Source of the DNA: an uncultured Bradyrhizobium sp.
Lineage (GTDB): Bacteria > Pseudomonadota > Alphaproteobacteria > Rhizobiales > Xanthobacteraceae
Reading direction: 5' to 3'
Length of the DNA: 64,000 bases
NCBI RefSeq assembly: GCF_947648125.1
Contig: NZ_CANSMR010000002.1
Span: 496,001 to 560,000 of the forward strand
Shown here piece after piece: positions 15,536 to 38,256 of the stretch. Under the pieces are notes generated by a model. The model did not search any database, was not told where the DNA came from, and saw only the letters and a program-made list of their open reading frames with translations. Both the position numbers and the translations under genes were made by a program. Within the stretch, counting starts at the first letter, position 1. Each line of letters opens with the position of its first letter.

Positions 15536-16477
15536 ATGCTCGATAACCTCACGCTCGACCAGATCCGGGTCTTCGTCACCATCGCCGAGAGCGGCAGCTT
15601 TCGCGCCGCCGCGACGAAACTGGCGCGGGTGCAGTCCGCGGTCAGCCATGCCATCGCCAACCTCGAGGCCGAACTCGGTCTCGTGCTGTTCGACCGCTCC
15701 GGCCATCGCCCGGCGCTGACGGCCGAAGGCAAGGCACTGCTCGGCAACTCGCGCGACCTGCTGCTCCGTGTCGATGCCATGCGGGCGCGCGCGCACGGCC
15801 TCGGCGAAGGAGTGGAATCGGAACTCTCGCTGGTGGTCGACACGCTGTTTCCGATCGCCGCGGTCGGTGCAGCGCTGACGGAAATGCGCTCAGCCTATCC
15901 GTCCGTGAGCGTGCGGCTCGCGGTCGAACCGATGGGCGGGCCGATCGCCGCCCTGACCGAACGGCGCAGTGCCCTCGCCGTCACGGTCGGCGAGGATTTT
16001 CGCGATCCCCGCCTCGCGCTCGATGCGATCTGCGCCGTACAGATCATCGCCGTGGCCTCCGCGGGCCATCCGCTCGCGCGCCGCGGCCGCAAGAGCGTCG
16101 CCGACCTCGCCGATCATCTGCAGATCGTGCTGTCGGATCCGACGCCGCTGTCGGAGGGCCGCAGCTTCGGCGTGCTCTCGCCGCAGATTTGCCGGGTGAG
16201 CAATCAGGACACCAAGCACGCCATGATCCTGGCCGGGCTCGGCTGGGGCCGACTGCCGCTCTGGCAGGTCGCGCGCGATCTCCGCGATCGCCGACTGGTG
16301 CGGGTCGAAACCGGCGCACTCGGCCGCAACGCGGCGCTCGCGATGGAGGCCTATCTGGCGCACCGGCTCGACGAACCGCTCGGCCCCGCGGCGCGTGCAT
16401 TCGCGGATGCGTTGACGCGGATCGCCGCGCAAGGCGGCGCGCCGGCGCGCAAGACGAGAGCGCGCAAGCAGCGCTGA
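15536..16477 (+). CDS. LysR-family transcriptional regulator
   Basis: A 313-residue LysR protein: N-terminal winged helix (LDQIRVFVTIAESGSFRAAATKL, VQSAVSHAIANLEAELGLVLFDR) and a periplasmic-binding-like effector domain. Divergent from the MFS transporter. The stop at 16477 is only 28 bases before the promoter of the RNA leader that follows. Confidence 0.9.
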   Translation: MLDNLTLDQIRVFVTIAESGSFRAAATKLARVQSAVSHAIANLEAELGLVLFDRSGHRPALTAEGKALLGNSRDLLLRVDAMRARAHGLGEGVESELSLVVDTLFPIAAVGAALTEMRSAYPSVSVRLAVEPMGGPIAALTERRSALAVTVGEDFRDPRLALDAICAVQIIAVASAGHPLARRGRKSVADLADHLQIVLSDPTPLSEGRSFGVLSPQICRVSNQDTKHAMILAGLGWGRLPLWQVARDLRDRRLVRVETGALGRNAALAMEAYLAHRLDEPLGPAARAFADALTRIAAQGGAPARKTRARKQR

Positions 16478-16505
16478 AGTTCTCTCGGCGCGATCATTTC
16501 CCTTG

Positions 16506-16534
16506 TTGACATCGACCAAGACGAGGCGTATGTC
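16506..16534 (+). promoter_or_regulatory. Promoter of the Ro60/Y RNA locus
   Basis: TTGACA at 16506-16511, 17 bases, TATGTC at 16529-16534. The same layout, with AGGCGTAT around the -10, recurs before rtcB at 36479-36507. Predicted housekeeping-sigma promoter. Confidence 0.65.
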
Positions 16535-16540
16535 CCGCAA

Positions 16541-16738
16541 CCTTCGCGAGCGCTGTCGCTCGCGATCAAACATGAGCACGATGATGCAATACGGATTTGA
16601 AAAATTCCGCAGACTGTCGAACGGCCTTCGGCCGAACGATAGCGTGTGCCCGGCTCATGGGAGCGATCTCGCATAATGCGAGGTCGACAGTCCGCCTTAA
16701 ACGGACCCTCCCGAGCCAGCCGCTCCGGAGGGTTTTTT
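16541..16738 (+). promoter_or_regulatory. Structured leader RNA (copy A), shared with rtcB
   Basis: The leader opens with a perfect hairpin, TCGCGAGCG / CGCTCGCGA at 16544-16565. Its 3' part can form a three-way junction. P1 is GGCTC-AT-GGGAG (16652-16663) with CTCCC-GAGCC (16708-16717); P2 is 16665-16685 with a TAA loop; P3 is GTCCG / CGGAC at 16690-16706 with a 7-base loop. The P1 3' strand is also the 5' strand of the terminator at 16706-16738, so the two folds exclude each other. Copy B at 36514-36720 keeps P1 through a C-to-T wobble change and P2 through several changes. Confidence 0.7.
16706..16738 (+). terminator. Intrinsic terminator in leader A
   Basis: CCCTCC at 16706-16711 pairs with GGAGGG at 16727-16732, with inner GAG/CTC, followed by six T (16733-16738). 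The upstream strand is shared with P1 of the leader junction. Confidence 0.8.
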
Positions 16739-16976
16739 GTTGTCCGAAGCACGGCTCATCTGAACTGCCCGGCGCAAAGCCGGAACGGGAGACCCGGATC
16801 CCGGGGCTCGCGCGGAGACGCGCGTGCCCAAGCGCGCGGGGCCTGCCGGAGGGAACAAGGCGATGAGCCGGACACCGATGGCAGAGCGAGCTCCAAGGAG
16901 TTCGCAACGGCGGCGCGTCGACAGCGCCGCGACGAAATTTTTGAAAACGGTTGGCCGCATCGCTGCGGCTCAACCG
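16739..16976 (+). other. Structured spacer between leader A and the first Y RNA
   Basis: No gene. It contains several hairpins: CCGGC/GCCGG near 16770, CGCGC/GCGCG near 16810, GCGA-CTCC/GGAG-TCGC near 16890, GCGGCGC/GCGCCGC near 16915-16931, and GGTTG-CCGCA / TGCGG-CAACC at 16949-16975. The last may be the 5' edge of Y RNA 1 or a processing site. No tRNA arm is visible. Confidence 0.4.
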
Positions 16977-17161
16977 ACGCTGGTGGTGAAGATGTCGGAT
17001 ACTTCGCTCAACTGGAAAGAGCGGGTTCGAATCCCGCCTTTGACACACGCACCGGGATGCGGCCTGGCAAAGGTCCGCACGCGGCCCGGCGCAGTTTCTC
17101 GCCCGCAAGGCGAGGCGCTGCGTTGTCGTCACTGACACCGATATCGCCCGTTCCCCAGCGT
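16977..17161 (+). ncRNA. Y RNA-like RNA 1 (tRNA mimic)
   Basis: Closed by a 7-bp stem, ACGCTGG (16977-16983) with CCAGCGT (17155-17161). It has the two boxes shared by all four RNAs: GGTGGTGAAGA (16982-16992) and the 3' box CCCGTTCCCC (17147-17156). A canonical T-arm, GCGGG-TTCGAAT-CCCGC, occupies 17021-17037. A D-arm-like GCTC / GAGC (17006-17022) overlaps it by two bases. CTTTG after the T-arm can pair with CAAAG at 17068-17072. Called Y-type because of the T-arm mimic and the TROVE gene downstream. Confidence 0.7.
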
Positions 17162-17193
17162 ACCTATCAATGGCCGGCGTCGATGCGCCGGTC

Positions 17194-17317
17194 TGGCGGT
17201 GGTGAAGATGTCTGTTACTTCGCGGTAAGGCACTTCGGTGCCGAGCGGGTTCGAGGCCCGCACGCCGAAAGGCGGTTCGCCCGCAAGGGCAGCAACAGCA
17301 TCGCTTGTTCCCCGCCA
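17194..17317 (+). ncRNA. Y RNA-like RNA 2 (tetraloop-closed)
   Basis: Terminal stem TGGCGG (17194-17199) with CCGCCA (17312-17317). Shared boxes are at 17198-17208 and CTTGTTCCCC at 17304-17313. The tRNA-like module has a GGCAC-TTCG-GTGCC hairpin (17229-17242) and a T-arm GCGGG-TTCGAGG-CCCGC (17245-17261). The acceptor stub CGCC-GAAA-GGCG (17263-17274) and the D-arm position GCCC-GCAA-GGGC (17279-17290) are both capped by GNRA loops. A CCGGCG/CGCCGG hairpin precedes it at 17174-17191. Confidence 0.75.
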
Positions 17318-17324
17318 ACCCTCT

Positions 17325-17488
17325 CCACGCCCCGTGGTGAAGATCGCTGTTACATCGTTTCCCACACGAGAGGTCGCGGGTTCGAATCCCGCCCGGTGTC
17401 ATGTGCACCGGTAGCTCAGCGGATAGAGCGCTACCCGGCGGGCCTTGGCTTGCCGGGGTCTCAGCAATCGCCTGTTCCCGGGTCGTGG
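17325..17488 (+). ncRNA. Y RNA-like RNA 3 (permuted tRNA elbow)
   Basis: Terminal stem CCACG and CCCG (17325-17334) with CGGG and CGTGG (17479-17488). The module runs in permuted order. First is an anticodon-arm-like hairpin TCGT-TTCCCAC-ACGA (17355-17369, reading CCC), then a T-arm GCGGG-TTCGAAT-CCCGC (17376-17392). Next come acceptor 3' strand CCGGTGT (17393-17399), linker CATGT, acceptor 5' strand GCACCGG (17405-17411), TA, and a D-arm GCTC-AGCGGATA-GAGC (17414-17429). A CCCGGC/GCCGGG hairpin (17434-17457) leads to the 3' box. Confidence 0.78.
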
Positions 17489-17552
17489 TCTTCAATCGCC
17501 GGCATGATCCCCGCGCAAACGCGTCGTGTTTGTCGCGAGGACCGCGCCGACA

Positions 17553-17689
17553 GCCGGTGGTGAAGAGCGCTGTTACTTCGTGATCGCAGGGTCGAGGGTT
17601 CGAATCCCTCCGGACGATCTTCGTCCGTAGCTCAGTGGATAGAGCATGCGAAGCCCGCATGGGCAGTGCAGGCTCGCTTGTTCCCCGGC
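17553..17689 (+). ncRNA. Y RNA-like RNA 4 (circularly permuted tRNA)
   Basis: Terminal stem GCCGG (17553-17557) with CCGGC (17685-17689); shared boxes at 17556-17566 and 17677-17686. Inside lies a tRNA without its anticodon loop, in the order: anticodon 3' strand TCGCA (17584-17588), GGGTC, T-arm GAGGG-TTCGAAT-CCCTC (17594-17610), acceptor CGGACGA (17611-17617), TCT, acceptor TCGTCCG (17621-17627), TA, D-arm GCTC-AGTGGATA-GAGC (17630-17645), A, anticodon 5' strand TGCGA (17647-17651). All stems pair perfectly. It ends 40 bases before the TROVE start. Confidence 0.82.
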
Positions 17690-17729
17690 AGCGCTTTCAA
17701 ATCCAAACTCACCCAGAAAGGAGGCCATC

Positions 17730-19055
17730 ATGGCCACGATCAACAAGATCATGCGCGCCTTCACCCGTGAGGGCGCGCGCGGACAGCGCTTCACGCCCGA
17801 GATGGAGCTGCGGCGTGCGCTGCTGAACTGCCTCCTGTGGGAGAACCAGTTCTACGAGGACGGGGTGGCGATCGCCGATCGCATCAAGGCATTGGTGCCG
17901 ACGGTCGATCCGGAGCGGACGGCCGAACTTGCCATCGCTGCGCGCGAGACCATGAAGCTCCGGCATGCGCCGTTGCTCGTGGTCCGCGAGATGGCGCGGC
18001 ATGCGACGCATCGCGGCCTCGTCGCCGATACGCTCGCCCGCGTGATCCAGCGCCCCGACGAAATGACCGAGCTGCTTGCGATCTACTGGGCGGATGCGCT
18101 CGGCCCGCAGCAGCAGCGCAAGCGTCAGCCGGTCTCGGCGCAGATCAAGAAGGGGCTGGCGCGGGCGCTCACCAGGTTCGACGCCTACCAGCTCGCGAAG
18201 TACGATCGCGACGGCGCGGTGCGGATCAAGGACGTGCTGTTCCTGGTTCACGCCAAGCCGAAGGGCGCCGCGCAGGAGACCGTGTGGAAGCAGCTCGTCG
18301 ACGGCGAGCTGGCCTCGCCCGACACCTGGGAGGTTTCGCTCTCGTCCGGCAAGGACAAGCGTGAGACCTTCGAGCGGCTGATCGCCGAGAACAGGCTCGG
18401 CGGGCTGGCGCTGCTGCGCAATCTGCGCCTGATGCAGAAGGCGGAGGTGCCGCGCCGGACCATTGCGGACGCGATTGAAGCGATGCGGACTGATCGTATC
18501 CTGCCCTACCGCTTCATCACGGCGGCGCGTTATGCGCCGGACTTCGAGCCCGAGCTCGAGGCCGCGATGCTGAAGTCGGTCAAGGACTACGCGCGGCTGG
18601 TCGGCCGCACGCGGCTCCTGATCGACGTGTCGGGATCGATGTTCACTCCGCTCTCGGCCCAGTCCGAGATGACGCGGGCGGAAGCGGCCTGCGGACTTGC
18701 GATCCTCGCCCGCGAGGTCTGCGACGAGGTGGAGATCTTCACGTTCAGCAATGAGGTCGTGAAGTTGCCGCCGCGCCGCGGCTTCGCGCTGCGCGATGCG
18801 ATCATCGGCTCGCAGCCGCATGGCGGGACGTATCTCGGCAAGGCGGTGATGGAGATTGACCGCAAGGGCGATCGCCTGATCGTCTTCACCGACGAGCAGA
18901 GCCATGACCAGGTGCCCGCGCCCAAGGGACGCGGGTACATGGTCAACGTGGCGTCCTACCAGCACGGTGTCGGACACGGCCCGTGGACGCGGGTCGACGG
19001 CTTCTCCGAGACCGTGATCGCCTGGATCGCGGCGTCGGAAGCGACGATGCACTGA
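17730..19055 (+). CDS. Ro60/Rsr-like TROVE domain protein with vWA domain
   Basis: A 441-residue bacterial Ro60 orthologue. Residues 1-285 are the alpha-helical TROVE ring, which in known Ro proteins binds the 3' ends of misfolded RNAs in its hole and Y RNA on its surface. Residues 290-440 are a von Willebrand A domain with an intact metal site: DVSGS at 299-303, the GGT threonine and the FTDEQSHD aspartate. The ATG follows AAAGGAGG by six bases. Four Y-type RNAs lie directly upstream and probably share its transcript. Confidence 0.92.
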   Translation: MATINKIMRAFTREGARGQRFTPEMELRRALLNCLLWENQFYEDGVAIADRIKALVPTVDPERTAELAIAARETMKLRHAPLLVVREMARHATHRGLVADTLARVIQRPDEMTELLAIYWADALGPQQQRKRQPVSAQIKKGLARALTRFDAYQLAKYDRDGAVRIKDVLFLVHAKPKGAAQETVWKQLVDGELASPDTWEVSLSSGKDKRETFERLIAENRLGGLALLRNLRLMQKAEVPRRTIADAIEAMRTDRILPYRFITAARYAPDFEPELEAAMLKSVKDYARLVGRTRLLIDVSGSMFTPLSAQSEMTRAEAACGLAILAREVCDEVEIFTFSNEVVKLPPRRGFALRDAIIGSQPHGGTYLGKAVMEIDRKGDRLIVFTDEQSHDQVPAPKGRGYMVNVASYQHGVGHGPWTRVDGFSETVIAWIAASEATMH

Positions 19056-34621: not shown

Positions 34622-35347
34622 TCACCCCGGCCGAGCGAACCGGCTCAACATCTCATGGACGTCATAAGTCATGATCGCAAGCAGCGCCGCAAGTCCGAGA
34701 TAAGCGGCCCCGTATTCGAGCTTGGTCTGAAGCGGAACGCCGTAGTAGGCGATGTTCTCCGGAGCATGAGGATCGTAGCGCCACGCCTGCAGCAACTGGG
34801 GGGCGGCAAGGATCGCGACGATCAGGAGCATCGGGCTCGGCCGGTACAGCATCAACGCCAGCAGGATCGGCACCCCAACGAACCAGATCCGGGGGCTGAG
34901 CACCGCCGTCACCCTGCCGCCATCGAGCGGCGACACCGGCAGCAGATTGAACAGATTGAGGAACAGGCCCGAATAGGCGATTGCCAGCAGAAGGCCGCTG
35001 TCTTCGGATCGTGCCAATAGATAGACCGCCAGCGCTGCGACCGTTCCGGCCACGGGACCTGCGATCGCGACATAGGCCTCGGTCTCGACATCCTCCGGAT
35101 GGTCTTTCAGTGCGATAAAGGCGCCCATGAATGGGATGAAAGCCGGCGCTCCGACATCGAGGCCGCGTTGCCGCGCGGCAACGTAGTGCCCCATCTCGTG
35201 CGCAAACAACAATGCAATGAAGCCCGCAGCGTAGCGCCAGCCCCATATCGTGGCGTAGACCGCGAGCGACAGCAGCATGCCGCCGCCGCTGGCAGCGAGC
35301 TTGCCCCATTTGAGACCCGAGAGAAGAAGAACCAGCAGCGCCTTCAC
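34622..35347 (-). CDS. Site-2-protease (M50) family membrane metallopeptidase
   Basis: A 241-residue integral membrane protein. HEMGH in the second helix is the zinc motif H-E-x-x-H; NLLPVSPLDGGR in a later helix carries the third ligand Asp. These are the two hallmarks of S2P proteases. There is no PDZ domain. The start overlaps the end of the DUF2167 gene by four bases (translational coupling), which suggests that they act together in the membrane. Confidence 0.9.
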   Translation of the reverse strand: MKALLVLLLSGLKWGKLAASGGGMLLSLAVYATIWGWRYAAGFIALLFAHEMGHYVAARQRGLDVGAPAFIPFMGAFIALKDHPEDVETEAYVAIAGPVAGTVAALAVYLLARSEDSGLLLAIAYSGLFLNLFNLLPVSPLDGGRVTAVLSPRIWFVGVPILLALMLYRPSPMLLIVAILAAPQLLQAWRYDPHAPENIAYYGVPLQTKLEYGAAYLGLAALLAIMTYDVHEMLSRFARPG

Positions 35348-36294
35348 GTCACGTCACCACCCACATCGGTGCGCGGCTTGCGACGGAAGAACTTCATGAT
35401 GCCGGCGCCGAATGCCGCAACGGCGAGCAGGATCACCTTGGCGAATTTCAGGACAAACGCCGTCACGATCGCCAGCAGCCCGAGCTTCTTGGCGGCGACC
35501 CCGCCGATCAGAGCAGCGAGGCCGTATGCGGCAACGCGATCGGTGCCGGCGCTGAAATCCTCGTAACGCTTGCCCTCATTGTAGGACAGGTCGCCGAGCA
35601 ATTCCCGCGCGACCGGCTTTTCGCTCTCGATGCGATCGGAGTTCGACAGCAGGTTCAGGCTGAAATAGCCGTCTCGTCCGAGCGCATAGGTGTTGAAGTT
35701 GACGCCCTTGGGCTGGTTATCGGGCTGTCCCTTGTCCTTGCCCAGCATCGACCACACCAGGCGGTGCGCTCCGGCATCATAGGCCGGCGGCTGAATCCAT
35801 CCCACCACCTCCAATTCGGGGAAGCCGCGCGCGACGCGATCCTTGTTGCTCTCCTCCACGCCTTCCTTGATCCCGCTCAGGAGCTCGTCGGCATTCCAGT
35901 TCTTCGCATCGTCGTCCTTGATGTAGCCTTCCTTGACGTAGCGAATGACCACGATCCACTGATCGTTCTGGCGCGTGCCGACGACAAGACCAATAAAGGT
36001 CTCGTCGTTGACGAGATTGCCGAGCGCGCGCAACACGCGCGTCCCCTCGGTCTTCGGGACGAAGAAACGTCCCTCCGGTAGCTTCAGCCTGGCTTGATCG
36101 ATCAGCGTCACGTCTGCGGGACCGGCGGTGCCGGCCTGACTCGCGGCCTGCCAGGCGGCAACCAGTTCGGCTTTTCGTGCGGCTTCACTCGGCGGCGAGC
36201 TCTGCCCGAATACCGGTAACGCCGCGAACAGGACCGCCAACATGATGGCTGCGACGGAAATCAACTTTTGCACGAGCGCGCCCCTCTTGATCAT
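35344..36294 (-). CDS. DUF2167 membrane-anchored protein
   Basis: About 316 residues with a signal peptide (LISVAAIMLAVLFAALPVFG), a large periplasmic DUF2167 domain (FIGLVVGTRQNDQWIVVIRY, EGYIKDDDAKNWNADELL, NFNTYALGRDGYFSLNLL) and one or two C-terminal membrane helices ending in basic residues. Function unknown. The ATG at 36294 has no ribosome site; a GTG at 36273 follows GAGGGG and may be the true start. Confidence 0.82.
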   Translation of the reverse strand: MIKRGALVQKLISVAAIMLAVLFAALPVFGQSSPPSEAARKAELVAAWQAASQAGTAGPADVTLIDQARLKLPEGRFFVPKTEGTRVLRALGNLVNDETFIGLVVGTRQNDQWIVVIRYVKEGYIKDDDAKNWNADELLSGIKEGVEESNKDRVARGFPELEVVGWIQPPAYDAGAHRLVWSMLGKDKGQPDNQPKGVNFNTYALGRDGYFSLNLLSNSDRIESEKPVARELLGDLSYNEGKRYEDFSAGTDRVAAYGLAALIGGVAAKKLGLLAIVTAFVLKFAKVILLAVAAFGAGIMKFFRRKPRTDVGGDVT

Positions 36295-36478
36295 GAACTG
36301 GACCGGGTGTCCGGTAACAACCCTAAATAGCAGTGTTAGACGACAAACTGCATAAGGGATCGGCGCTTTTCCAAGGCGCCGCCCTGCTCCAATATCGCCG
36401 GTCGCGCCGGCCCGAATGCGGAATCGCTTCACATCACGAAAGCGCGGCGCGATCACACCAACCGCTCGTGTGCGCCAC

Positions 36479-36507
36479 TTGACATTCAGAGGTTGCAGGC
36501 GTATTTC
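36479..36507 (+). promoter_or_regulatory. Promoter of rtcB
   Basis: TTGACA at 36479-36484, 17 bases, TATTTC at 36502-36507, matching the spacing and the AGGCGTAT context of the Ro60-locus promoter at 16506-16534. Confidence 0.65.
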
Positions 36508-36513
36508 GGCGGC

Positions 36514-36720
36514 CCTCGCGAGCTCCATGTTCGCGAACCATTGCGAGCAAGCCAATGCAACCGAAACCGCAGCACGGATACGAACAGATCCGCCGACGAT
36601 CAGCCAATCTACGGCCGATCGTCTGTGCATGCCCGGTTCATGGGAGCGGTCTCGCTTAAGCGCGATCGACAATCCGTAAGTCACGGACCCTCCCGAGCCA
36701 GCCGCTTCGGAGGGTTTTTT
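36514..36720 (+). promoter_or_regulatory. Structured leader RNA (copy B), shared with the Ro60 locus
   Basis: It opens with a TCGCGA / TCGCGA hairpin. The 3' part is P1 GGTTC-AT-GGGAG (36635-36646) with CTCCC-GAGCC (36690-36699), P2 at 36648-36667 with a TTAA loop, and P3 TCCG / CGGA at 36673-36687 with a 7-base loop. The P1 3' strand is shared with the terminator that follows. The upstream gene is on the other strand, so this terminator cannot serve it. It must act on rtcB or release a short RNA. Confidence 0.72.
36688..36720 (+). terminator. Intrinsic terminator in leader B
   Basis: CCCTCC (36688-36693) with GGAGGG (36709-36714), inner GAG/CTT, then six T. Nearly identical to the one at 16706-16738. 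Confidence 0.8.
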
Positions 36721-36816
36721 GTTGCCCACGCGCGGTCTGGTCGAACTCCGGCAGCGACAATGCCGAATGGCCGCGCGGAATGCGCGGCTGATCCAGCTTC
36801 AGCAGGAGCCAACACA

Positions 36817-38157
36817 ATGCGACGACCTGATCCCTACCAGGAGCGCGCCCGCGAACTCTGCCTCGCCGCGGGCATCGATCCGGATTCCCGCATCGGCGAA
36901 GGCCGCGGCCAGCCGGCCTGGTGCCTGTATCGCGATGCCGCCCGCAAGGAGAAGCTTGCGCGCGAGGCCGATGCGGCCTCGGCGGAGATTGCGATGCTGC
37001 GCCCGCAGGAGGAGCGTTTCAAGAACGCGCCGCTGAAGGTGTTCGGCGAGCACGACCCGGCGACCATCAAGCAGATGCGCAACTGCATGGCGGTCGGCAA
37101 CGTCGTGTCCGGCGTAATTTGCGCGGACGGCCATCTCGGTTACGCCCAGCCCGTCGGCGGCGTGATCGCCTACGAGAAGCAGATCAGCATCTCCGGCGTC
37201 GGCTTCGACATCGGTTGCGGCAACATGGCCGCGCGGCTCGACGTGTGCTTCGACGACATCCGCGAAACCGTCCCGACCATCATTCGCGACGTCGCCAAGG
37301 TGATCTCCTTCGGCATCGGCCGGAAGAACATCGAGAAGGTCGAGCACGCGCTGTTCGACGACGGCGACGCCTGGCGCGAAAGCGATATGGAGGCCTACCG
37401 GCAGAAGGCGATCGGCCAGCTCGGCACGGTCGGCTCCGGCAACCACTATGTCGACCTGATGCGCGACGAGGCCGGCTTCGTCTGGATCGGCGTTCACTTC
37501 GGAAGCCGCGGGCTCGGGCACACCAGCGCGACCCGCTACCTCAAGGCCGCCGGCGGCAAGGACGGAATGAACGTTCCGCCCGCCATCGTCGACGAGGATT
37601 CCGAGCTCGGGCGCCGCTATATCGCCGCGATGCAGCTCGCCGGGCGCTATTCCTATGCGGGCCGCGAGTGGGTCGTGGATCGTGTCCGCCAGATCATTGG
37701 CGGCAAGGTCACCGATTCCGTGCACAACCACCACAACTATGCCTGGCGCGAAACGCATGACGGCAAGGATTTGTGGGTGGTGCGCAAGGGCGCGACGCCG
37801 GCCTTCCCCGGCCAGCGGGGATTTGTCGGCGGGTCGATGGGCGATGATGCCGTCATTCTCGAGGGTGTCGATAGTCCGGAGGCGAAGGCCTCCCTCTACT
37901 CGACGGTGCACGGCGCCGGGCGGTTGTTCGGCCGTAACGAAGCCAAGCGCCGCTTCACGCGCGAGGAGATGGACCGCTGGCTCAACGAGCGCGGCGTCAC
38001 GCTTATTGGCGCCGATCTCGATGAAAGCCCGATGGCCTATCGGCGTCTGCCGGACGTGCTTGCACGGCACGCCGGGACGGTGAAGGTGCTGCACACGCTG
38101 CGGCCGTTTGCCGTGGCCATGGCGGGTGAAGGCGAGTTCGATCCCTGGAAGGATTAA
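36817..38157 (+). CDS. rtcB: RNA-splicing ligase RtcB
   Basis: A 446-residue RNA ligase that joins 2',3'-cyclic-phosphate or 3'-phosphate ends to 5'-OH ends using GTP and Mn. GVGFDIGCGNMAARL at about residues 128-141 holds the metal Asp131 and Cys134. GSGNHYVDL, GVHFGSRGLGH and NHHNYAW supply metal histidines, and STVHGAGRLFGR contains the histidine that takes GMP. The ATG at 36817 has AGGAG upstream. No rtcA or rtcR is in the window. Confidence 0.95.
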   Translation: MRRPDPYQERARELCLAAGIDPDSRIGEGRGQPAWCLYRDAARKEKLAREADAASAEIAMLRPQEERFKNAPLKVFGEHDPATIKQMRNCMAVGNVVSGVICADGHLGYAQPVGGVIAYEKQISISGVGFDIGCGNMAARLDVCFDDIRETVPTIIRDVAKVISFGIGRKNIEKVEHALFDDGDAWRESDMEAYRQKAIGQLGTVGSGNHYVDLMRDEAGFVWIGVHFGSRGLGHTSATRYLKAAGGKDGMNVPPAIVDEDSELGRRYIAAMQLAGRYSYAGREWVVDRVRQIIGGKVTDSVHNHHNYAWRETHDGKDLWVVRKGATPAFPGQRGFVGGSMGDDAVILEGVDSPEAKASLYSTVHGAGRLFGRNEAKRRFTREEMDRWLNERGVTLIGADLDESPMAYRRLPDVLARHAGTVKVLHTLRPFAVAMAGEGEFDPWKD

Positions 38158-38181: not shown

Positions 38182-38256
38182 GGTGCGGTGGCGAAATGGG
38201 AACGCTGCGGTCTGCAAAACCGCCATGAGCCGGTTCGACTCCGGCCCGCACCTCCA
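38182..38256 (+). tRNA. tRNA-Cys (GCA)
   Basis: Complete cloverleaf: acceptor GGTGCGG / CCGCACC; short D-arm GCG-AAATGGGAA-CGC; anticodon arm GCGGT-CTGCAAA-ACCGC (GCA); five-base variable loop CATGA; T-arm GCCGG-TTCGACT-CCGGC. The discriminator is T, a cysteine identity element, and CCA is encoded. It begins 24 bases after the rtcB stop. The three-pair D stem is unusual, but E. coli tRNA-Cys also has an odd D-arm. Confidence 0.93.

Follow-up and report, generated by a model that had tools for sequence, protein, structure and literature searches.

A candidate leader-peptide attenuator upstream of RNA-repair genes in Bradyrhizobium

What controls the genes for Ro60/Y-RNA and RtcB when they lie behind copies of the same structured leader? 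The question is raised by the stretch of DNA analyzed here (the window), 64,000 nt from an uncultured Bradyrhizobium sp. (NZ_CANSMR010000002.1, positions 496,001 to 560,000). To our knowledge, the regulation of RNA-repair operons without RtcR and the signal for bacterial Ro60/Y-RNA are open questions. A first-pass annotation of the window had described, at two loci, a junction stem (P1) that excludes a terminator with six T, and had taken the element for a riboswitch or an attenuator. Both pairings are indeed present at both loci. What the annotation overlooked is a short upstream open reading frame (uORF), a promoter-like site at each locus, the Y-RNA units that follow copy A, and the much broader distribution of the element. 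With these included, the idea of a cis-acting leader stands and its attenuator form is favored over the metabolite riboswitch. We consider it likely that the element is a leader-peptide (ribosome-mediated) transcription attenuator of RNA-repair genes, in which ribosomes probably decide whether these genes are switched on. The features of copy A (16506-16738), of copy B (36479-36720), and of the genes behind them are the following.

16506..16534, + strand: promoter-like site of copy A, TTGACA-17 nt-TATGTC (sequence and consensus scan)
16572..16676, + strand: uORF of copy A, 34 codons and TAA (MSTMMQYGFEKFRRLSNGLRPNDSVCPAHGSDLA); the start used in most relatives is 16584
16652..16663, + strand: P1 5' strand of copy A, GGCTC-AT-GGGAG, in uORF codons 27-31 of 34, 11-22 nt 5' of the stop
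16664..16686, + strand: P2 hairpin of copy A, whose loop holds the uORF stop codon (16674-16676)
16690..16706, + strand: P3 hairpin of copy A
16708..16717, + strand: P1 3' strand of copy A, CTCCCGAGCC, also in the 5' arm of the terminator
16706..16738, + strand: intrinsic terminator of copy A, CCCTCC-C-GAG...CTC-C-GGAGGG and T6
16980..17690, + strand: tRNA-like Y-RNA units, with YrlA-like matches below the Rfam cut-off at 17566-17673 and 17369-17432
17730..19055, + strand: rsr, Ro60/TROVE protein gene (Pfam TROVE, PF05731)
36479..36507, + strand: promoter-like site of copy B, TTGACA-17 nt-TATTTC (sequence and consensus scan)
36555..36659, + strand: uORF of copy B, 34 codons and TAA (MQPKPQHGYEQIRRRSANLRPIVCACPVHGSGLA)
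36635..36646, + strand: P1 5' strand of copy B, GGTTC-AT-GGGAG
36690..36699, + strand: P1 3' strand of copy B, CTCCCGAGCC
36688..36720, + strand: intrinsic terminator of copy B, similar to that of copy A, and T6
36817..38157, + strand: rtcB, RNA ligase gene (Pfam RtcB, PF01139)

The two copies share a TTGACA-17-TAT promoter-like site, a leader of about 200 nt, the P1 junction, and, in competition with P1, an intrinsic terminator. In both, P1 and the terminator use one common strand, CTCCCGAG, and their pairings are mutually exclusive. P1 survives the C-to-T change in copy B, as the annotation had pointed out, by keeping a U-G pair. Upstream of copy A, a gene in the same direction, which we label LysR-type, ends at 16477 and is separated from the leader by the promoter-like site. 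Upstream of copy B, the mechanically listed reading frame 35344-36729 lies on the minus strand, so this copy cannot be the terminator of an upstream gene, in agreement with the earlier claim. No Rfam family reaches its gathering score in either leader, and the annotation, too, could name no class that it matches; in the copy A region (16400-17760) nothing appears in the leader at E values up to 5, and copy B was scanned at the gathering score. Among the matches listed by a literature search, no open-license paper describes this element in its title or the start of its abstract.

A covariance search, which the first-pass annotation had suggested for the two copies, shows that the element occurs in many other genus genomes. 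Our model R1, built on 30 sequences (alignment A1), gave 73 matches in 68 of 195 genus genomes, the three samples of 195 genomes being taken as identical by their handles. Of these matches, 72 are strong (E values of 1e-47 to 9e-22 over whole genomes) and one (L151) was judged false by eye, being a tRNA-like sequence with a terminator. Copies A and B are the sole long matches in their own genome by DNA and R1 search, next to five others of 17-21 nt. By DNA search, 41 of 117 genus genomes contain the element, three of those matches being short and weak. A search of 198 family genomes with copy B returned two genus genomes and seven short weak matches, and R1 on 397 order genomes matched in two genus genomes, besides one false positive. 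A plasmid search found no similar DNA. The match L079 (the terminator of a gene) and the weak matches L229, L230, and L233 were also judged false by eye.

The gene context of these sites is very regular. The annotation had named a location mainly at the 3' ends of unrelated genes as the observation that would speak against its reading; what we find is that 70 of the 72 strong sites lie upstream, and in sense, of rsr (56) or of rtcB alone (14). Y-RNA motifs usually stand between the leader and rsr, and rtcB follows rsr within the fetched stretch at 33 of the 56 sites. The two sites with neither gene in the fetched stretch are followed by other genes (L110) or by two Y-RNA motifs and then the contig end (L086, in genome G096, which has rsr on a separate contig). 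The two contigs of G096 (C34 and C74) place this leader and rsr at least 4 kb apart, perhaps by an insertion. Conversely, the element is present in all 57 genomes with an rsr ortholog (identity of about 77% or more, counting G019 and G364, where rsr matches in two pieces) and in all 48 genomes with a close rtcB (88% or more). Of the two remaining rsr-positive genomes, G311 has a broken fragment and G037 has paralogs of 49-51% identity. At two loci (L129 and L140) rtcB starts 35 nt 3' of the match, which leaves little room for another promoter. A second kind of rtcB occurs in 27 genus genomes, mostly at 79-83% identity; four of these genes are split or incomplete (pieces of 64-88%). Of the 27 genomes, 19 lack an R1 match and eight carry the element at rsr. 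Upstream of the eight second-kind genes that we read there is no convincing leader, the best candidate (17 bits, L241) lying antisense to the gene.

The comparison of the 72 strong sites also supports the start of the leader and its reading frame. A consensus scan picked TTGACA as the best -35 box at 68 of them and, among the 12 commonest spacings, a -35/-10 distance of 17 nt at no fewer than 69; TATGTC (38), TATTTC (16), and TATCTC (5) account for most of the -10 hexamers. The uORF stop is at the identical place in all 72 (TGA in 45, TAA in 18, TAG in 9); in L143, where the script took a different GGG as its anchor, it still reached this stop. In 67 of the 72 an ATG lies exactly 25 or 29 codons ahead of the same GGG codon. 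This frame is free of stops in all 68 testable copies, whereas 22 and 47 of the 68 contain stops in the other two; column shuffles, which ignore relatedness, never gave zero stops in 300 trials. These frame statistics omit four sites: L116 is frameshifted, L137 and L144 are one codon shorter, and L143 has its 5' part deleted. By eye, no strong Shine-Dalgarno sequence precedes the uORF start. In both window copies the 5' strand of P1 lies within the last uORF codons and the stop lies within the P2 loop, so that, as in leader-peptide attenuators, a short leader ORF ends next to the regulatory stems. The distance from stop to terminator, in contrast to the fixed stop, varies between 29 and 35 nt (31 loci). 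Three copies depart from the common plan: L116 has a broken uORF and a P1 mismatch, L131 has a P1 mismatch, and both retain their downstream gene. In L143 (G361) the promoter and most of the uORF are deleted and the remnant of the leader is fused to the upstream LysR-like gene, with rsr retained. Either some copies are decaying, or control is dispensable there.

Could a ribosome be stalled in this uORF at particular codons? In such a variant of the attenuator, the scarcity of one charged or intact tRNA (e.g., Arg-AGA, Leu-CTA, Tyr-TAC, or Cys-TGC) would stall the ribosome, as in trp-type leaders. Rare codons make up 10.2% of uORF codons 2-20 vs. 1.7%, with rarity defined from 12 window genes; AGA occurs in 51 and CTA in 48 of 68 uORFs, AGA is rare in both other frames (6/68 and 2/68), and codons 5-6 are commonly TAC-GAA. 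However, relative to base composition the excess shrinks to about 2.4-fold for AGA and about 2.3-fold for CTA, and CTA is equally common in another frame (53/68). Ten of 24 uORFs of mixed rsr, rtcB, and MATE types have none of the six rare codons that we sought, and Arg replaces the usual Cys in 13 of 68. The uORFs that we read contain no run of a single codon, and thus lack the tandem codons of trpL. We regard this codon-specific variant of the attenuator as unlikely.

In a search over 110 nt, the best partner of the terminator 5' arm has its start 19-25 nt 5' of the uORF stop in every one of 71 genus copies (all but L143); in all 20 distant copies, L232 among them, this range is 18-27 nt. 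The location of P1 beneath a terminating ribosome is thus fixed, and by this geometry a ribosome at the uORF stop would cover the 5' strand of the antiterminator, given the footprint size that we assume. Across alignment A1, 96.3% of the P0-P3 cells pair. Changes on both sides occur in seven pairs (four in P0, two in P2, one in P3), vs. a shuffled mean of 4.2, and the number of further pair types (16) does not exceed that of shuffles (16.5). P1 itself is nearly invariant in the genus, with 8 of its 10 pairs never varying. A swap of P1 partners among 24 copies (two of them with a wrong ORF) barely lowered stability (-21.4 vs. -20.3), and is uninformative because the 3' strand of P1 hardly varies. 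Against mononucleotide-shuffled 5' strands, within a window of the last 36 nt of the uORF that the 110-nt search later widened, P1 reached a mean z of -2.1 over the 24 copies, with p < 0.05 in 16 (copy A, z of -1.5 and p of 0.07; copy B, z of -2.6). L232 is counted among the 24 in both tests.

Folding predictions suggest that the choice between the two pairings would have to be made while the RNA is being synthesized. Without a ribosome, and with the 3' half of the terminator still absent, P1 forms in 55 of 72 leaders; the 17 without a full P1 comprise 10 with none and 7 with 4-5 pairs. Stalling a ribosome 16 codons ahead of the stop leaves P1 in 55 of 71, and with a ribosome masked onto the stop it forms in none, by construction. 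Full-length equilibrium folds contain the terminator in 69 of 71 cases without a ribosome and in 70 of 71 with an early-stalled one. The terminator is the more stable structure in copy A (-42.3 vs. -36.8 kcal/mol) and in copy B (-33.2 vs. -31.0 kcal/mol). Its formation in all 72 folds with a ribosome at the stop is therefore uninformative, since it wins at equilibrium regardless of the ribosome. For the same reason read-through would have to be kinetic.

Related leaders were found outside the named Bradyrhizobium records, where they precede other genes as well. A search of genome contigs for the Rsr protein gave 74 loci, 65 of which have an R1 match upstream of rsr. Among the nine without, three (L153, L189, and L206) have less than 1 kb of upstream sequence, one (L160) is the separate contig of G096, four (L214, L217, L219, and L223) belong to other phyla, and the alphaproteobacterial locus L203 shows no rsr leader by R1 or R3 in 3.3 kb of upstream sequence. 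Divergent rsr leaders were found in Alphaproteobacteria outside these records at 12 loci (L188, L191, L192, L200, L201, L202, L204, L207, L208, L209, L218, and L225). All 12 contain a uORF-like frame that stops in the P2 region, the start of L200 being lost at the contig end. By eye, P1 has changed in several of them and still pairs, as GGTTCG/CGAACC in L201, as GAGGG/CCCTC in L191 and L192, and as GGAGG or GGAGGGG with its complement in L202, L204, L207, and L208. A further divergent candidate leader (L232/L235, G854:C21:178064-178202) has P1 as CTGGAGG/CCTCCAG; L232 (27.7 bits) has a uORF, P1, and a terminator, followed by a 240-aa protein without a Pfam match.

At nine rsr loci, which are all those among the 74 with a MATE homolog of this kind inside the fetched DNA, a related uORF attenuator precedes the MATE transporter gene: L188 (8087-9496), L225 (8024-9481), L202, L203, L204, L206, L207, L209, and L218. 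Pfam MatE was confirmed for all six of these genes that were scanned. The MATE loci near rsr usually also hold an RtcB gene of another kind. A model of eight of the nine MATE leaders (R2), which matches those eight by construction, also matches the ninth (L218) at 56.7 bits and recovers copy A (40 bits), copy B (26 bits), and all 12 divergent rsr leaders. Reciprocally, a model of 24 rsr-side leaders (R3) recovers the eight MATE leaders among the 13 loci searched (E values of 4e-11 to 3e-6). In the window genome R2 matches only copy A (E of 0.001), and the nearest MATE gene (41% identity) has no such leader by eye. The class-wide sample is small, with 289 class genomes searched by R2 and R3 and the 397 order genomes by R1 only.

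The Y-RNA units downstream of copy A bring in a different possibility, namely, that the element is a free-standing small RNA, such as a Y-RNA-like partner of Rsr, which has a promoter and a terminator to itself and does not control the next gene in cis. The units are probably several Y RNAs preceding rsr: the motif GGTGGTGAAG occurs three times 3' of copy A, and the YrlA-like matches score 44.2 bits (17566-17673) and 40.3 bits (17369-17432), under the YrlA (RF02553) gathering score of 69. By eye they stand in tandem, with GGTGGTGAAGA-like starts and the 3' half preceding the 5' half in a circularly permuted look, and ARAGORN calls one unit of the region a tRNA-Gly (17327-17400). Some 240 nt (16741-16980) separate the copy A terminator from the first Y-RNA motif, with similar spacing at many loci, and may contain a further RNA. 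Such neighbors, a promoter-like site of its own, and a strong terminator, favored at equilibrium, would suit a small RNA. Yet 70 of the 72 strong sites lie in sense upstream of rsr or rtcB, related leaders at distant loci lie upstream of MATE genes, rtcB begins just 35 nt after the match in L129 and L140, the uORF is conserved, and the Rfam scan of 16400-17760 gives no YrlA match in the copy A leader, which together make a free-standing RNA very unlikely. Behind the other copy, a tRNA-Cys gene (38182-38256) lies directly 3' of rtcB, as at five of 13 other rtcB-only loci by ARAGORN (L138, L139, L145, L146, and L150), and is followed by an AAA_28 ATPase gene (PF13521, 38331-38972).

The first-pass annotation had left room for a metabolite-binding riboswitch, in which a small ligand held in the P1-P2-P3 junction would stabilize P1 and block termination. 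The three-way junction, the riboswitch-type expression platform, and the good conservation of the junction letters within the genus agree with such a model. But the 5' strands of P1 and P2 belong to a conserved reading frame that ends in the P2 loop, an arrangement that favors the ribosome as the sensor over a ligand pocket. Moreover, the P2 sequence, its loop, and the junction differ among distant copies, and Rfam gives no match. A riboswitch is therefore very unlikely, and of the signals proposed with it, GTP, Mn, and cyclic phosphates find no support; tRNA damage is possible, acting indirectly through ribosome stalling. Equally hard to credit is a nascent peptide that arrests the ribosome upon binding a specific drug or metabolite, because its C-terminal ACPAHGSDLA, similar in most genus copies, overlaps P1 and P2 so that RNA pairing can account for the conservation, because divergent copies end differently (ARHARGSGLA, TAHGGAF, AREGAMD) and the peptide sequence is not conserved, and because the fraction of synonymous changes 5' of P1 is not elevated (0.26 vs. 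0.283 +/- 0.056 in shuffles), suggesting that the open frame and the RNA pairing are kept rather than the peptide.

How could the leader-peptide attenuator work? We propose that RNA polymerase starts at the TTGACA/TAT promoter and makes a leader of about 200 nt with a uORF of about 30 codons. A ribosome translating to the stop in the P2 loop would cover the 5' strand of P1 and P2 with its footprint. The common strand CCCTCCCGAG would then pair forward into the terminator, keeping rsr/Y-RNA or rtcB off. If ribosomes did not load or stalled early, P1-P2-P3 could fold before the second half of the terminator exists and hold the common strand, allowing the polymerase to read through into the genes. 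The genes would thus be turned on upon a failure of translation, be it by inhibitors, damaged or missing tRNAs, or damaged ribosomes. RtcR was matched in none of the 98 genus genomes searched, the window's genome included, with a positive E. coli control, and an attenuator of this type could replace the protein sensor where RtcR is absent. A broader version, to which we give an even chance, is that in Alphaproteobacteria without RtcR the ribosome is the sensor of RNA damage, and that a single family of uORF attenuators unites RtcB, Ro60/Y-RNA, and MATE exporters in a translation-failure regulon. If so, RNA repair would gain a built-in damage sensor, and the MATE copies would tie repair to drug export. 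If the leader reads out translation, one reporter could test both the control of RNA repair and the signal for Ro60/Y-RNA.

These features recall several known systems. Attenuators of the trp type have a uORF and an antiterminator and terminator with a common strand, and their complete translation leads to termination. Our leader differs from them in having no run of control codons, in targets outside amino acid synthesis, and in an early stem (P0) clear of the switch strands. The uORF attenuator of duf1127 in Sinorhizobium meliloti is also rhizobial; its translation is reported to lower downstream transcription, an effect that tetracycline relieves (PMC12218461). It differs in its gene and in having no intrinsic terminator, with Rho proposed by the authors (PMC12218461). 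The RtcR-controlled operons rsr-yrlBA-rtcBA of Salmonella and rtcBA of Escherichia coli contain the same kinds of genes and are switched on by damaged tRNAs or by problems with the translation machinery. The E. coli rtcAB genes are activated under RtcR by agents that impair translation and aid survival of ribosome-targeting drugs (PMC5175333, PMC12606134), and the Salmonella operon is reported to respond to damaged tRNAs (PMC7790460). Their regulator, unlike our leader, is a protein that activates transcription and binds oligonucleotides through a CARF domain. The nearest precedent is the PA5471.1 leader peptide of armZ in Pseudomonas aeruginosa, which also precedes an RtcB-like gene. It is proposed to act by transcription attenuation, with termination relieved by ribosome-targeting drugs and a link to efflux through MexXY (PMC12057347). 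ArmZ differs in being an anti-repressor of MexZ. The link to drug export is thus made by another route there; the present leader directly precedes rtcB, rsr/Y-RNA, and, in other lineages, MATE genes.
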